The notes beneath the pieces were generated by a model. It saw only the letters and a list, made by a program, of their open reading frames with translations. It had not been told where the DNA came from and did no database searches. A stretch of 64,000 nucleotides of DNA. It comes from Iodobacter fluviatilis. Its GTDB lineage: Bacteria > Pseudomonadota > Gammaproteobacteria > Burkholderiales > Chitinibacteraceae. The stretch's first letter is position 1, and every line of letters starts with the position of its first letter. Positions 2,267 to 56,418 of the stretch are shown here, piece after piece. The stretch spans positions 3,348,001 through 3,412,000 of the forward strand of contig NZ_CP025781.1 in NCBI RefSeq assembly GCF_004194535.1. Direction: 5' to 3'. Made by a program: the position numbers and the translations under genes.

Positions 2267-3181
2267 TTAGCCCTCTACTTTACCGAGTAATAGATATTCA
2301 ATCACTGCTTTTTGCGTATGCATGCGATTTTCTGCTTCATCCCATACTACTGATTGTGGGCCATCGATCACTTCAGGGTCTACTTCTTCGCCTCGGTGTG
2401 CGGGTAAGCAGTGCATAAACATTGCATTTGCCTTGGCTTGTAACATGACTTTTTCGCTTACGCGGTAGTGTAAAAAGTCTTTTCGGCGTTGCAGTGTTTC
2501 GCGCTCAAATCCCATTGAAGTGCAAACGTCGGTGGTCACGATATCGGCATCGCGTGCGGCTTGGTATGGGTCGTAGAATGTTTCGAAATGCTCGATACCA
2601 TATTTCTGCCCGTCTAAAACTGTCATCTCGTAACCGCGAGGACAGGCTTGGTTGAGTTTAAAGTTGAAGATTTTCGCCGCTTGCAGCCAAGTGCGGGAGA
2701 TATTATTGCTATCGCCAATCCAAGCTACAGTTTTGCCTTCGATCGAGCCGTTTTTTTCGATATAAGTAAAAATATCAGCCAAAATTTGGCAAGGATGATA
2801 TTCATTGGTTAGCCCGTTAATCACAGGGACTAAAGAATTATCAGCAAAGCGCTCGACAATACTTTGCTCAAAAGTGCGCACCATGACGATATTGGTCATG
2901 CGGCTAATCACTTTTGCCACATCTTCGATCGGCTCGCCACGGCCTAGCTGGGTGTCTTTAGATTGCAAAAACATCGCATGGCCGCCGAATTGGGCCATGC
3001 CAGCTTCAAAAGAAACGCGGGTTCGAGTGGATGATTTTTCAAAAATCATGGCCAAGACTTTGCCGATTAGCGGTTGGTATAGCTCGCCCGCGGCCAGTTT
3101 GGCTTTAAGGATGGCGGCGCGTTTGAATAGATATTCGTATTCTTCGCGGGTGAAATCGGTGAATTGCAGATAATGGCGCAT
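2267..3181 (-). CDS. argF: Ornithine carbamoyltransferase
   Basis: The enzyme makes citrulline from ornithine and carbamoyl phosphate. The 304-residue protein shows the carbamoyl-phosphate motif SSTRTRV at residues 50-56, the HPCQ(I)LAD motif near residue 129, and the ornithine/catalytic motif HCLPAHRGEEV near residue 258, all as in the anabolic family. Length is typical. An arginine-repressor site could lie in the 3182-3548 intergenic region, but I could not identify a clear ARG box. Confidence 0.97.
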   Translation of the reverse strand: MRHYLQFTDFTREEYEYLFKRAAILKAKLAAGELYQPLIGKVLAMIFEKSSTRTRVSFEAGMAQFGGHAMFLQSKDTQLGRGEPIEDVAKVISRMTNIVMVRTFEQSIVERFADNSLVPVINGLTNEYHPCQILADIFTYIEKNGSIEGKTVAWIGDSNNISRTWLQAAKIFNFKLNQACPRGYEMTVLDGQKYGIEHFETFYDPYQAARDADIVTTDVCTSMGFERETLQRRKDFLHYRVSEKVMLQAKANAMFMHCLPAHRGEEVDPEVIDGPQSVVWDEAENRMHTQKAVIEYLLLGKVEG

Positions 3182-3548
3182 AGGGCACAGTCCGTACGGG
3201 CTGCCAAATTAAGAGCGTGATCGAGTTCTGTTAATACAACGTGCCTGAGCGTCATCTGCATTATTTGAGCGGTGCGGATAGCTGCTACAAAAAATACTTA
3301 CAGCTTTTCGGCCGCGCATTATGATTTTTGGAGTTCATCAAAAAACGATCATTCTTAAAATGGATCTAGCCACTTTGAGAAAAAACAACCATTATTCAAC
3401 CGTTTGCAGGTGGCTGGCAAGCTTTGTCAGTGTGTCGGGTGTTTACGTAGTAACTTGTACGGAGAATAGACTAAGAATTTCTAAGGCGGCAATTTGCCCT
3501 TGGATGGTATAATCTGAAAGATATTCAATCCGCCACGCTGTTTTTCAA

Positions 3549-10677: not shown

Positions 10678-11286
10678 ATGAAAACTGTAATTCTTATTGG
10701 CGCAAACGGTAAAATGGGTCAAGCGGCGTTGACTGGGCTTGGTAAACACCGCGTTATTACTGCTAGCCGCAGCGGAGAGGGTGTCGATTACAAGGTCGAC
10801 ATTACCGACAAAAACTCCATTCAAGAGCTGTACAAAAAAGTTGGTAGCTTCAATGCTGTGGTAAATACAGTCGGCGTCTGTGAGTACGCTCCGTTTGAAT
10901 CTATGACCAGCGAGCAGTGGGATACCACTATTCAAAGCAAACTGGTTGGTCAGATCAACTTGGTGAGCGTTGGCTTGCAATATATCGAGGACGGCGGCTC
11001 GTTCACCCTGATCTCGGGCATCTTGAATATGAAGCCGATTCCGTTCGCTATCGCTGATGCCACCACCAGCGGAGCTATTGACACCTTCGTAAAATGTGTC
11101 GCCCATGAGCTGCCGCGCGGTATTCGCATCAACGTTGTGAACCCAACCGTTCTGGAAGAAGCATGGCACGTCTACGGTGAAATGATGCCAGGCTTCCAAC
11201 CGGTACCAAGTGTATTGGTGGGTAAAGCGTTTGAACGTTCTGTTGACGGCTTCATCAGCGGGGAGGTTATCTTCGTAGACGCGTAA
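10678..11286 (+). CDS. Atypical short SDR-family protein (PRK07578-like)
   Basis: The 202-residue Rossmann protein has the N-terminal nucleotide motif GANGKMGQA (residues 8-16), VVNTVGV in place of NNAG, and a serine in LISGIL. However, the Tyr-x-x-x-Lys catalytic pair is absent: the expected place reads FAIADATTSGAIDTF. The C-terminal LPRGIRINVVNPTVLEE is as in a compact SDR subfamily I recall as short chain dehydrogenase, provisional. Reductase chemistry by the usual mechanism is therefore doubtful. It is divergent from a lysR gene, its likely regulator, and ends at a hairpin terminator. Confidence 0.8.
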   Translation: MKTVILIGANGKMGQAALTGLGKHRVITASRSGEGVDYKVDITDKNSIQELYKKVGSFNAVVNTVGVCEYAPFESMTSEQWDTTIQSKLVGQINLVSVGLQYIEDGGSFTLISGILNMKPIPFAIADATTSGAIDTFVKCVAHELPRGIRINVVNPTVLEEAWHVYGEMMPGFQPVPSVLVGKAFERSVDGFISGEVIFVDA

Positions 11287-52589: not shown

Positions 52590-52913
52590 TACAAGATAGC
52601 GAGCACGGTGACTTCGGACGGTCTGGTTGTTTTTGAAGTGGTGCGACAATTGAGATTTAAGCACCGAGTCAGCCAAGCGCCCAAAGGTAAGGCCGGAACG
52701 GAAATTGACGTATTTAAATGGCACAATGTGATGCTGGGGAATCTAAAAACGGCGCAATCAGGGACCTATCATGCATTCAAATACGGTAAATATGCGGGTC
52801 GCTATTTGGCAGAAATGTAGTATCGATTTAATCGGCGTTTTGATTTGTGTGCCCTACATGCCTTACTCATAGCCAAGCCTTGGGCGCTTGGCTGAGCAAG
52901 AAACATAATCAGG
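52590..52913 (+). pseudogene. IS1595-family transposase 3' remnant with right end
   Basis: The frame reads ASTVTSDGLVVFEVV, then VFKWHNVMLGNLKTAQSGTY and HAFKYGKYAGRYLAEM, an in-frame TAG, then YRFNRRFDLCALHALLIAKP. This is the C-terminal half of an ISXO2/IS1595 DDE transposase (the HNVMLGNLKT and YRFNRRFDL motifs). The 5' part is missing. The end CAAGAAACATAATCAGG abuts the stop codon of the nucleotidyltransferase gene. The stretch 52261-52589 holds no gene. Confidence 0.75.
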
Positions 52914-54236
52914 TTAATTAAAGTTATAAATCAGCTGTTTTAACTTTTCAGCGACCCCTACACGATCAAATTTATATCCTAAATACATCTCACCTGCATT
53001 GCCATGGCCATCCTGTAGTAAATGGCCAACCCCAAATTGATCTTCGTCAGGTCTCATAGCTAATAAATCACCGCTAAGTTTAATTAAACTATCTCTTACA
53101 TTGTTTTTTATATCTAAAACAACATCACTATTATTGCTTGCTATTTCATTTGGTGTCGTTAGAATATTAAAAATCAACCGTAATTTCAAATATTTACTCG
53201 CTAAAAAATCAGCTCCAAACCTACCACTCTCAGACTTTTTCATCCCATCCAGTACAACCTCTTTATCTAGGAAATATGACAATGTATGTATATTCGGTTT
53301 GCCGGTATCACCTTGAGGATAATAGATTCTGCCATTAGCCGCCTCCATCATTTCTTGCGCACAGATTAAATGCTTTGCCTCGGCAGGAACTTCATCGTCA
53401 ACTCTAGCCCCCACTTTATCATGCAATACTTTTAAAAAATCAGTCAGTAAAGGAACGAGTTTATCCTGATATACAATATAAGTTTGATTATCACAAGAAA
53501 ACATAACATCAATATCAGAACCCTCCTTTTGACTGCCCGTTGCATATGAACCATATAGAAATGATACAAAAGTGCCACCTAAATGTGTAGATAACTCCGA
53601 ACAAAATTTTTCTATTTCATATTTAACATTGATATTTTCCTCCCGTACTTCAACTGCGGTAATTATATCTTTAATCGTCTTTAATGCGCCTGGAGCGCAT
53701 TTTTGATGTGTTAATAAAGTAGGATAATCATATTTATCTACTTTTAATGGATAGAAACGATGTTCATTACTCAGTTCAATGTTGGAAGCATTCAATACTT
53801 CATGGTCATCGGTTATAAATGTCTCTTGACGAACATACAAATCACTTTCGGTAATATCATTACCATTTAATTCTAAAACATGAAACCATATGTAATCTGG
53901 ACGACTTCTCTTATCTACCTGATCATAAATATCATGATTGGGTCCACGTCTTGAATGCACAGTATTGGCGGTATCAATTAGCAATCTATCCCCATTTACA
54001 ACTTGGATACCTTCCTTTGCCATCAATAATGATCCATTGACTTTTTCCACTAAATGGCTCACGCCAATTAGAATAACCGAAAGAGGTTTAACTCCACAGT
54101 CTGCTTTTTCTGATTGCATATCAATAGCATCTATACTGACTTGTGAGTTTAATTCAACATTTTTTTCTTTCGGCATCATGTTTTCTGATGCTGAAAGAAA
54201 ATACGAGCTGGGCTGGCGACAAAGTTCAATAGGCAT
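52914..54236 (-). CDS. Protein with MNT-type nucleotidyltransferase domain and unknown N-terminal half
   Basis: The 440-residue protein has an N-terminal half (about 1-220) that I do not recognise, with segments SVILIGVSHLVEKVNGSLL and PDYIWFHVLELNG. A minimal nucleotidyltransferase domain follows: the core motif GSYATGSQKEGSDIDV at 229-244 (G-S-x10-D-x-D, Asp241/Asp243) and a third acidic residue near 280 (ARVDDEVP). It should transfer a nucleotide to a small molecule or protein. GGAG lies 7 bases before the ATG. It is downstream of and co-oriented with the decarboxylase gene, AT-rich, and ends against an IS end. Confidence 0.8.
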   Translation of the reverse strand: MPIELCRQPSSYFLSASENMMPKEKNVELNSQVSIDAIDMQSEKADCGVKPLSVILIGVSHLVEKVNGSLLMAKEGIQVVNGDRLLIDTANTVHSRRGPNHDIYDQVDKRSRPDYIWFHVLELNGNDITESDLYVRQETFITDDHEVLNASNIELSNEHRFYPLKVDKYDYPTLLTHQKCAPGALKTIKDIITAVEVREENINVKYEIEKFCSELSTHLGGTFVSFLYGSYATGSQKEGSDIDVMFSCDNQTYIVYQDKLVPLLTDFLKVLHDKVGARVDDEVPAEAKHLICAQEMMEAANGRIYYPQGDTGKPNIHTLSYFLDKEVVLDGMKKSESGRFGADFLASKYLKLRLIFNILTTPNEIASNNSDVVLDIKNNVRDSLIKLSGDLLAMRPDEDQFGVGHLLQDGHGNAGEMYLGYKFDRVGVAEKLKQLIYNFN

Positions 54237-54347
54237 ATTTTTACTCCATGGTATTATCGATGCATATACGTGGAAAACCCCACCCCTTTAATGCTTCAAA
54301 AATTGAAAAATAGGATGGTTTTAAAGTACATATAACCGCAATAAAAA

Positions 54348-56123
54348 CTAACGAATTGGCGAGCTAATATCTTCATTCGCTATAAAATAGCGCCCTGATA
54401 AAATCAATTGTTCATATTTTGAAAAAGCCATCATTATATGATCGACAAGCTCACGTGCTTTCTGTTTGCTCAAACCAGGGACCATGTTGTAACAAATAAA
54501 ACCATGTCCTAAATTGTTACCATATTCACGGCGAAAATCTTTAACGATGCTGATGCTAGGTATCTCATTTCCGCTATTGATTTGCTCAGTAACATACTGA
54601 TAAAAACCTTCGTAAATTTTATTATTTGAATGCAAAATGCTTAACTCTTTATTTGGCTGTATTGAAAAAATAATTTCCCACCCTAAAGAGTAATTATTTA
54701 ATATATTTACTTGGTTATATTCTAGAAGGCAATCTTTAATTTGTTCTGTTGAATGTAATAATTCAGCTAAATAGGTTCTAAGACCATTCTTGCCTAATCT
54801 TTGTAATGCAACCCATGAGCTTGCAATGCCTGAAGCAGAACGTGAGTTTTCAATTGTATTCTCAAATGCCTTTAACTCACCATAATGTAATGATTGTGCT
54901 TGCCCCTCATTTTCTTTACGTGTTGTGATTGCCATTTTTTTACTAATAAAAAAACTACTAGAGTAAGGAGAAAGTCCATTTTTATGTAGATCAACACCAA
55001 ATGAATCAAAATGCTTTATGTATTTAAACTTATTTAATACAGAATTAATTTTACTCTTAATTGGTTCATTAATATTCATTTCGTCATAAATCCCCTCAGG
55101 CGCCTGCATAAAACTCAGCCAGAGCCAACCTATAACACTATCCAGATGCAAATAAGGGAAATAATTAAGTTGATAGAGATTGACAATGTCTGAAACTGCT
55201 TTATGCACAACATGTGTATCTTCGCATAGAAAATCTAACGTTGTTCCTCCACAGACAATAATTGCAGCAACTCGTTTTTTTTTAGCAACTTGTGATGCAA
55301 ATGCTGCTTTTAAATCATCGGCTTGCATTCCATCAGAAGATTGAATAGGTACACGAATGCATTGCTGGCTGCCTAGCCCCAATAGGCTGCATGTGTGCTC
55401 AAGAGAATAATGTGCTCCATCAGCAACTAATATAACCAAATCATTTGGAATACCCACAATTGCTGCATTAGGCTCAATTCTATCAATTGCTGCCTTGATT
55501 CCATAAAAAAGAGTAAGCTTGCCTCCACTGCACGAAAGTCCTGTCGCCTGATCCCACCCTGCCAATTCACCTAAACTTCTTGCTACTTGCTGCTCAAACA
55601 ATAAGGATTTTCCACCGTAGTTATCCATAATGGCATTTATATTATAGAGCTGCATTAAAGATGCGGCTGCGATAGAATCTAACATTGGATTCGGCACCAT
55701 ATTAAATACAGCGTAAGGAGACGAAGGCCGAATACTCCCATCAACAATGTCTGCAAATGCGTTAAAAACTTGATCGCTTTTTTTTCCTATATCAGTCATC
55801 AATCCTTTTTGTATCATTTCTTCATAGGAATAGTCTGTCACAGGGAACTTCGGGCCATAAGCAATTTTAGCTTGAATATAATGATAGCCATTCCATAGTT
55901 TATCAAGGTAATTATCAATATTTTGGCCATTTTTATGAAAAAACTCATCACTGGGAAAAAGATGGCAAAACTTATTATGCATTTCTGGCTGATATTTAAC
56001 TTTTTCAAATTCAGAATCTATTTCCTGCTCACACGCTAAGTTATTTAGTGTTGTAGCTGTATTTCTACTTTGTGCAGTATTGGACAGCGGGTTCTGACTT
56101 GCAATTTGGTTCGGAATTGACAT
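54348..56123 (-). CDS. Group II PLP-dependent decarboxylase-like protein
   Basis: The 591-residue protein has the group II decarboxylase landmarks: SGGKLTLFYGIKAA near 199, the PLP-stacking His in ADGAHYSLEH near 238, the Asp that pairs with the pyridine nitrogen in YLHLDSVIG near 328, and the PLP lysine in FGVDLHKNGLSPYSSSFF near 381. It should decarboxylate an amino acid, but the substrate is unknown. It is clearly AT-rich relative to the rest of the window. I use ATG 56123, with AGG 7 bases upstream, over ATG 56129. It is followed after 111 bases by the nucleotidyltransferase gene. Confidence 0.85.
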   Translation of the reverse strand: MSIPNQIASQNPLSNTAQSRNTATTLNNLACEQEIDSEFEKVKYQPEMHNKFCHLFPSDEFFHKNGQNIDNYLDKLWNGYHYIQAKIAYGPKFPVTDYSYEEMIQKGLMTDIGKKSDQVFNAFADIVDGSIRPSSPYAVFNMVPNPMLDSIAAASLMQLYNINAIMDNYGGKSLLFEQQVARSLGELAGWDQATGLSCSGGKLTLFYGIKAAIDRIEPNAAIVGIPNDLVILVADGAHYSLEHTCSLLGLGSQQCIRVPIQSSDGMQADDLKAAFASQVAKKKRVAAIIVCGGTTLDFLCEDTHVVHKAVSDIVNLYQLNYFPYLHLDSVIGWLWLSFMQAPEGIYDEMNINEPIKSKINSVLNKFKYIKHFDSFGVDLHKNGLSPYSSSFFISKKMAITTRKENEGQAQSLHYGELKAFENTIENSRSASGIASSWVALQRLGKNGLRTYLAELLHSTEQIKDCLLEYNQVNILNNYSLGWEIIFSIQPNKELSILHSNNKIYEGFYQYVTEQINSGNEIPSISIVKDFRREYGNNLGHGFICYNMVPGLSKQKARELVDHIMMAFSKYEQLILSGRYFIANEDISSPIR

Positions 56124-56154
56124 AATCATACCTAGAAAGTTAGTTAAGCATTAA

Positions 56155-56418
56155 CCTGTTATGTCTCTTGCTCAGTTAATTATCCACGCGGACATGGCTT
56201 GGCTATAAGTAAGGCATGTAGCATACGAGGAACAAGGGCGCACAAATCAATACCCACGATTAATGTGTACACCCCAGTGACAATCCTTGCTGCCCACGGT
56301 TTGAGTTTAAAACGAAAAGTCTTGCACCGAATCAAAGCACCGCCGATGTGGATGCTTTTTATGCCGTACGAATTGCTAAATCAAGCCTTTTTTAGGAAGA
56401 GACATAATTAGGAAATTC
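56155..56418 (-). mobile_element. Internally deleted IS1595-like element with both ends
   Basis: The left end CCTGTTATGTCTCTTGC (56155-56171) and the right end GAAGAGACATAATTAGG (complement) are imperfect inverted repeats, related to the end at 52896-52913. On the minus strand, IDLCALVPRMLHALLIAKP before a stop is the transposase C-terminus. Most of the transposase is gone. It is inverted relative to the remnant at 52590, so the two-gene cassette lies between opposed IS ends. Confidence 0.7.

Follow-up and report, generated by a model that had tools for sequence, protein, structure and literature searches.

In the ascamycin (acm) gene cluster, the extra alanyl-tRNA synthetase (AlaRS), AcmD, withstands the product better than its housekeeping counterpart does, and the SB-203208/altemicidin (sbz) cluster carries an extra isoleucyl-tRNA synthetase (IleRS), according to excerpts of a review (PMC12945691). 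Excerpts of a second paper describe a phosphoramidate bond in agrocin 84 (with the group at N6) and in microcin C, and name no natural inhibitor of methionyl- or arginyl-tRNA synthetase (MetRS, ArgRS) (PMC7916415). Here we describe two neighboring genes in a stretch of 64,000 nucleotides of Iodobacter fluviatilis (contig NZ_CP025781.1, positions 3,348,001 to 3,412,000 of the forward strand), referred to below as the window: a group II decarboxylase dependent on pyridoxal phosphate (PLP), and a nucleotidyltransferase. The two families are found together in several phyla, in most loci with a full-length ArgRS or MetRS. We consider it an even call whether these loci are minimal biosynthetic cassettes, in which a nucleotidylated amine would mimic an aminoacyl-adenylate and poison ArgRS or MetRS, with the extra synthetase as the antidote. 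No paper on a decarboxylase-nucleotidyltransferase pair was found in the open-licence literature by title or abstract start.

Both genes of the window are real and intact open reading frames (ORFs), co-oriented as the earlier note on this DNA had read them, and lie on the minus strand. The decarboxylase (54348-56129, 593 amino acids, aa) is upstream and the MNT-type nucleotidyltransferase (52914-54236, 440 aa) downstream, which is the usual order in relatives. The decarboxylase matches PF00282 with 28.3 bits (cut-off 27), as a member of group II, and His240, Asp330 and Lys383 align with the conserved catalytic columns of group II decarboxylases. We take these residues to be the PLP-stacking His, the PLP-binding Asp and the Schiff-base Lys, respectively. 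The nucleotidyltransferase matches PF01909 over the cut-off (E 6.6e-6) and falls 0.1 bit below that of PF18765, with the core at residues ~209-265. The core holds G229-S230 and D241-x-D243, and further motifs of the family are found around H272, at D280/E282/K288, at R353-L354-N357-T360 and at G415-L419-G420-Y421. The alignment of 12 members (the window and 11 others) shows 18 invariant columns over the whole domain, and the window protein finds six fetched relatives in tblastn with E values from 4e-12 to 4e-5. With the catalytic GS ... DxD and the C-terminal motifs present, it fits the family. Its N-terminal extension (residues 1-198; 53643-54236, minus strand) is unique to the window member and shows no Pfam match above the cut-off, none in PDB sequences at E up to 1, and none in the fetched loci (E 1e-4), the plasmids (E up to 1) or PHROGs.

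Among relatives of the window's genome the nucleotidyltransferase was found in one genome of 100 and the decarboxylase in one of 41, in each case the window's own. The same holds for the nucleotidyltransferase in 398 genomes spread over the phylum (one match, the window's own), and a profile built from the 12 members matched two of 299 genomes of the phylum, the own one and another with a weak match (E 3e-7). No second case of the window's decarboxylase clade with the nucleotidyltransferase was found in these 398 and 299 genomes. In a plasmid search with the window nucleotidyltransferase, the sole matches were two Streptomyces plasmids, where a decarboxylase gene overlaps by 4 bp, and querying with the Streptomyces protein brought in Nocardia farcinica as well, with the order decarboxylase, methyltransferase, nucleotidyltransferase, ArgRS. 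A genome scan with three nucleotidyltransferase queries, covering 84,980 species by one genome each, gave nine loci: two from Bacilli metagenome-assembled genomes (MAGs), one from an Obscuribacterales MAG, one from Streptomyces anulatus, one from an actinobacterial MAG, three from Nocardia and one from Frankia tisae. A group II decarboxylase is adjacent or one gene away in all nine, and in the Obscuribacterales locus both domains are fused in one 765-aa ORF. The profile search of 148 Nocardia genomes (the genus of locus L018) gave 22 places in 21 genomes. All 16 places with E < 1e-20 lie beside a decarboxylase (three of them are L017-L019); of the other six, five are weak, three of them with a reductase variant and two with no match to a decarboxylase or synthetase, and the sixth runs into a contig edge. 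The 344 genomes from the phylum of L012, one of the Bacilli loci, gave nine places in eight genomes, two of which look real (L012 itself and L089), and the 376 genomes from the phylum of L018 gave only L018's own at E <= 1e-8, with at most seven candidates scored per genome in the rows listed.

Altogether, both genes are present in 25 distinct loci including the window, and the 24 others were found by the nucleotidyltransferase alone. The linked loci span Actinobacteria, Bacilli, Obscuribacterales and the apparent TGA=Trp genome of L089; the Nocardia members are related to one another, and Pseudomonadota, Actinobacteria, Bacilli, Obscuribacterales and L089 can be regarded as roughly independent. 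Recurrent linkage of the two families, a check that had been set beforehand, was thus borne out across several phyla, with one fusion among the cases, which rules out chance neighborhood in general.

The count leaves out duplicates (L045, identical to L009; L021 to L018; L023 to L016; L064 to L013; L065 to L012; L087 to L053), L011 (the protein set of L008 carried by a second plasmid), L025-L027 and further short loci from places already counted, L058/L088 (a contig edge with the nucleotidyltransferase end and ArgRS only), and the matches H26-H28 (45 residues, with no annotated gene underneath). L056 and L057, the decarboxylases of which are near-identical, were counted as two loci from two genomes. 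Weak loci were not counted: L060 and L061 (no decarboxylase or synthetase match), L067-L073 of Bacillota as well as L075 (no decarboxylase match in their short loci), and the Nocardia reductase variants L059 (152-6246), L062 and L063. These variants lack a decarboxylase and carry ArgRS, a reductase of the aldehyde-dehydrogenase type, a paralogue of ArgRS reduced to a truncated catalytic domain, and a methyltransferase. In L059 and L063 they are followed by a distant nucleotidyltransferase.

A full-length aminoacyl-tRNA synthetase (aaRS) is encoded in 21 of the 25 loci, ArgRS in 13 and MetRS in eight. The ArgRS-type loci also carry a methyltransferase dependent on S-adenosylmethionine (13/13), to which no match was found in the eight MetRS-type loci. 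In all eight synthetase-type genomes in which ArgRS and MetRS were counted, an extra copy is present: the five ArgRS-type genomes hold two or three argS and one metG, while in the three MetRS-type genomes metG passes the cut-off twice and argS is single (in G487 it appears as two fragments on two contigs). For the cassette MetRS, PRK00133 was the best model in four of four cases tested, with scores that stay under its own cut-off but pass the one for metG. PRK12267 is matched above its cut-off by all three housekeeping MetRS from the MetRS-type genomes. Here PRK00133 and PRK12267 are equated with type 2 and type 1 MetRS, respectively, by our own assignment. Type 2 MetRS is described as insensitive to type 1 inhibitors in excerpts of PMC8165550. 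Identity to the L018 copy is 62-94% for the cassette ArgRS and ~28-29% for three housekeeping copies. The HVGH motif is present in every cassette ArgRS examined, and the MetRS show KMSKS in L012 and L015 and KFSKS in L013.

The cassette decarboxylases form one supported group (20 rows) in a quick tree of 30 rows, in which the program flagged long branches, including that of the window, and which leaves out ArgRS-type L047 and L049 and MetRS-type L054. Every row shown has the stacking His together with the Asp and Lys of the PLP site. The Cys that ends the motif H(A/C)D(A/G)C is directly followed by Trp in all ArgRS-type rows (11/11) and by His in all MetRS-type rows (7/7). As this position tracks the type of locus, it suggests that the substrate of the decarboxylase follows the synthetase, though kinship could also explain the Trp/His split. 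Trp is found in both Streptomyces rows as well, so that an arginine-type product is predicted there.

In the proposed route, the decarboxylase would convert an amino acid to the amine, as expected from its family and conserved catalytic residues, and the nucleotidyltransferase would transfer a nucleoside monophosphate, most likely adenosine monophosphate, from the nucleoside triphosphate onto the amine or a group derived from it. Nucleotidylation of a decarboxylated amine, one of the possibilities raised in the earlier note, would be the most economical chemistry. The product would be a stable mimic of the aminoacyl-adenylate and would inhibit the cognate synthetase, for which the extra ArgRS or MetRS would be an insensitive replacement. 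The reductase of L059, L062 and L063 may provide a second way to modify arginine at its carboxyl end, with the final steps unchanged. A wider claim is more tentative, and we hold it somewhat likelier to be wrong than right: that the loci, the window pair among them, form an undescribed family of minimal small-molecule poison-antidote cassettes, in which the decarboxylase and nucleotidyltransferase, in some loci with the methyltransferase, turn arginine, methionine or another amino acid into a decarboxylated aminoacyl-adenylate mimic, and a horizontally acquired insensitive ArgRS or MetRS is the antidote, spreading as orphan resistance through Nocardia.

Cassette-type ArgRS was found in 64 of the 148 Nocardia genomes (E <= 1e-100). 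It is present in all 11 genomes with a strong ArgRS-type nucleotidyltransferase and in 53 of the 137 others (Fisher p 6e-5, uncorrected for relatedness). Orphan copies are represented by L120-L139 and L022, and matches to the decarboxylase, methyltransferase and nucleotidyltransferase were found in none of 20 loci outside the known cassettes, for each of which 9-16 kb were fetched. In the ArgRS tree (a quick tree, with 13 of 37 inner branches weak), where the reductase variants and the contig-edge copy were classed as cassettes, orphan and cassette copies interleave, and the fewest changes are 10. A resistance gene that outlives its producer or spreads from it would look like this. In Nocardia nova (L022), the CYTH gene (compared by eye) and the helix-turn-helix gene resemble those upstream of the N. 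farcinica cassette. The latter (L009) is flanked by two CRISPR-like arrays (2855-3188 and 10745-11079) with the same 29-nt repeat and a 61-nt period.

A number of observations weigh against the cassette interpretation. In respect to the chemistry, decarboxylation removes the carbonyl that an adenylate mimic normally keeps. Four of the 25 loci have no synthetase in the stretch read (the window, the Streptomyces loci L008 and L014, and L089); the S. anulatus genome holds one argS and one metG over the cut-offs, and the window genome one MetRS and one ArgRS, with no match to either in the 64-kb window. KTR(A/S)G is present in all cassette ArgRS examined except that of L018, and the Nocardia MetRS have KFSTS instead of KMSKS, so the full activity of the cassette synthetases is not certain. 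In L016, 3.3 kb with two ORFs of opposite orientation separate the ArgRS from the decarboxylase, and in L056 and L057 transcription of the MetRS gene is divergent. The presence of a cassette-type ArgRS is by itself weak evidence, because orphans are common in Nocardia. Beyond the core genes, no family occurs in more than four of the 23 actinobacterial loci (ORFs overlapping the core were set aside), and no conserved exporter was seen, which speaks against a secreted antibiotic. The window decarboxylase is directly beside the nucleotidyltransferase, but is of another clade than those of the remaining loci, and this clade adjoins an aminotransferase in three of five plasmid neighborhoods and the nucleotidyltransferase in none (the gene tables are incomplete).

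The enzymes with which the window decarboxylase groups (supports 99-100) are plasmid enzymes of Brevibacillus, Melissococcus, Enterobacter, Kosakonia and Rhodococcus. The plasmid decarboxylases of Brevibacillus (pBRLA33), Melissococcus, Enterobacter (pIMI-5) and Kosakonia are 36-43% identical to it over 85-93% of the length; a class I/II aminotransferase adjoins three of the four, and, unlike in the window, this nucleotidyltransferase is beside none. The methyltransferase of the cassettes has no match in the window. Because the nucleotidyltransferase and the gene order are shared, and the decarboxylase clade, synthetase and methyltransferase are not, the window pair was filed as a divergent relative of the cassettes, which probably works alike, and not as a proven member.

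The base composition of the pair stands out among the 41 non-overlapping window ORFs of at least 200 aa, of which the two genes have the lowest GC content: 35.5% for the decarboxylase and 35.1% for the nucleotidyltransferase, with a mean of 48.8% (standard deviation, sd, 3.7) for the other 39. At third codon positions (GC3) the values are 27 and 26% versus 49% (sd 7). The pair is thus strongly AT-richer than its flanks, the second point set for checking beforehand. Together with the homologues not being found in related genomes, this supports a pair that is foreign to its surroundings and was horizontally acquired. The earlier note had spoken of a transferred module, and transfer agrees with the composition, the searches among relatives and the remnants of insertion sequences (IS) on both sides; present mobility does not, as both IS copies are broken.

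The left remnant, of the IS1595 family (52590-52913, plus strand; the left boundary is that of the earlier note), comprises the 3' part of the transposase gene at 52608-52817 and a terminal end at 52896-52913. In PF12762, the IS1595 transposase domain, the former aligns with the C-terminal half (E 1.5e-7, profile positions 82-148 of 153). The right element, described before as an internally deleted IS1595-like element, has its own inverted ends, and its extent was refined to 56155-56412 (minus strand, 258 bp). Three inverted-repeat pairs of 87-94% identity link 52837-52908 with 56159-56253, in agreement with the inverted IS1595 bracket noticed earlier, and the stop codon of the nucleotidyltransferase (52914-52916) does follow immediately after the IS end. 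The 8-bp flanks of the right element (AGCATTAA / AAATTCTT) are not a target duplication, and the inverted-repeat comparison found no IS end repeat between the two genes. A currently mobile IS1595 composite transposon was considered in view of the inverted copies and rejected, with the left transposase being a C-terminal remnant and the right copy lacking a target duplication. Since the inner end of the right element is located 25 bp upstream of the decarboxylase start codon (window 56126-56155), the native promoter of the pair was probably displaced. With the IS end in the expected place of the promoter, the pair may be poorly expressed, silent, or read from an IS promoter. The 111-bp gap between the genes (54237-54347, minus strand) shows no minus-strand promoter- or terminator-like site in a scan that gave 13 promoter-like sites, with a mean of 17.6 in shuffles.

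The part played by each protein could also differ from that proposed. The best matches of the nucleotidyltransferase profile among solved structures are the ANT(3'')(9) aminoglycoside adenylyltransferases (E 1.2e-5), an APH-family phosphotransferase adjoins the pair on the two Streptomyces plasmids, and an APH-type gene lies ~2.5 kb upstream in L012. These would fit a decarboxylase product (an amine or a compound derived from one) that is itself active; the nucleotidyltransferase would then adenylylate it to inactivate or store it, much as aminoglycosides are adenylylated by AadA-type enzymes. However, the match is limited to ~60 residues of the common catalytic core, the fusion to the decarboxylase and the fixed pairing suggest a biosynthetic step, and the extra aaRS would be redundant if the nucleotidyltransferase were protective, which makes this explanation unlikely. 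An aminoglycoside-modifying enzyme proper was rejected for the window protein, with scores far under the cut-offs for ANT_9 (14.8 of 340 bits) and PRK13746 (12.1 of 193 bits). The extra synthetase, in turn, could be a biosynthetic partner that supplies aminoacyl-adenylate or aminoacyl-tRNA and not the protected target. There is precedent in excerpts of PMC12945691, where AcmF uses Ala-tRNA from the extra AlaRS AcmD and SbzA uses Ile-tRNA, and the ArgRS fold seems to be used in chemistry in the Nocardia variant, because a truncated second ArgRS catalytic domain is present in L059, L062 and L063, with the reductase in place of the decarboxylase. Yet cassette-type ArgRS occurs repeatedly without the other genes, which is odd for a dedicated biosynthetic enzyme, and L059 holds a complete ArgRS along with the truncated one. 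A synthetase devoted to biosynthesis is therefore doubtful, and, as AcmD also serves resistance, the two roles are not exclusive.

For the window, one can imagine a chance or decayed assembly, with a Brevibacillus-type decarboxylase and an unrelated orphan nucleotidyltransferase joined by IS elements: the decarboxylase clade is not the one that partners the nucleotidyltransferase elsewhere, no second case of the combination was found, a gap replaces the overlap, and IS ends abut both ends of the pair. We find such an assembly improbable, as the two intact genes point the same way, follow the usual order and share the same extreme base composition, no IS end repeat separates them, and the family stands beside a decarboxylase throughout the genome-scan loci (9/9) and the Nocardia places with E < 1e-20 (16/16). 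Still more improbable is that the nucleotidyltransferase acts on a macromolecule, as MntA, HalB or a CD-NTase does, within a toxin-antitoxin or anti-phage module. The profile similarities behind this reading are weak. NCBIfam models for MntA (NF047752) and HalB (NF051895) give 22.4 and 18.3 bits, far under the curated cut-offs of 60 and 190; the PADLOC models PDC-M05A and PDC-S09 match the core only (best E 3e-5; PADLOC supplies no cut-off), and the best PADLOC oligonucleotide cyclase model reaches E 0.0085. Type VII antitoxins of the MntA kind have a HEPN toxin encoded next door, but the neighbor here is a decarboxylase and not a HEPN, effector or HalA gene, and the partners in relatives are metabolic (decarboxylase, methyltransferase, aaRS). 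On these grounds a MntA antitoxin, a Hailong HalB and a CD-NTase of the cyclic oligonucleotide-based anti-phage signaling system (CBASS) were each rejected. No relatives were found in 50,697 phage records or in five viral-contig scans, and a phage or viral origin was rejected as well. Of the conflict or defence role suggested in the earlier note, a poison-antidote sense is strengthened for the relatives by their extra ArgRS or MetRS, while the anti-phage sense finds no support.

Some loci show further genes around or within the cassettes. L089 (7650-11910) has a methyltransferase, a 455-aa nucleotidyltransferase and a 700-aa decarboxylase, and is a divergent cassette in a reduced genome; because the genes break at TGA, this is probably a TGA=Trp Mollicute. 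The C-terminal part of its decarboxylase weakly matches AbiEii nucleotidyltransferases (E 0.028). In the two Bacilli MAGs, a RelA/SpoT protein without the C-terminal part is encoded directly upstream of the MetRS-type cassette (L012 5073-6515, in two pieces; L015 4836-6275, as one ORF). An APH-type kinase and NUDIX, HisC-like aminotransferase and zeta-toxin-like genes are found around the MetRS-type cassette of L012 (2992-4617, 8641-9696 and 11399-12205).

Should the poison-antidote reading be true, the cassettes would make natural inhibitors of bacterial MetRS and ArgRS, and would give second copies of the MetRS and ArgRS genes a natural selective reason to spread. They would offer a compact and easily tested family of pathways to new aaRS inhibitors, with the likely target encoded alongside in most genomes. 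The window would then represent a proteobacterial branch with another target, and its pair adds a member without a synthetase alongside to indicate that target.

In comparison with known systems, the window enzyme has a minimal nucleotidyltransferase core in common with MntA type VII antitoxins and Hailong HalB, and differs from them in scoring under their curated cut-offs and in having a decarboxylase as its neighbor. With AadA/ANT(3'')(9) the family has in common the polymerase-beta-like nucleotidyltransferase core, but the likeness stops after it (the cassette family has the constant RLxxNxLT and LGY motifs and a decarboxylase partner). Agrocin 84 and microcin C are made by other genes, and their targets are leucyl- and aspartyl-tRNA synthetase. 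They and other aminoacyl-adenylate mimics, as described in excerpts of PMC7916415, belong to the same class as the proposed product. The review of the acm and sbz clusters contains neither the word nucleotidyltransferase nor the word decarboxylase (PMC12945691). The products of these clusters are a sulfamoyl nucleoside or a sulfonamide, and the synthetases are AlaRS and IleRS, in contrast to the ArgRS and MetRS of the cassettes. An extra aaRS copy is nevertheless what the acm and sbz clusters, according to the excerpts of that review, share with the cassettes (PMC12945691).

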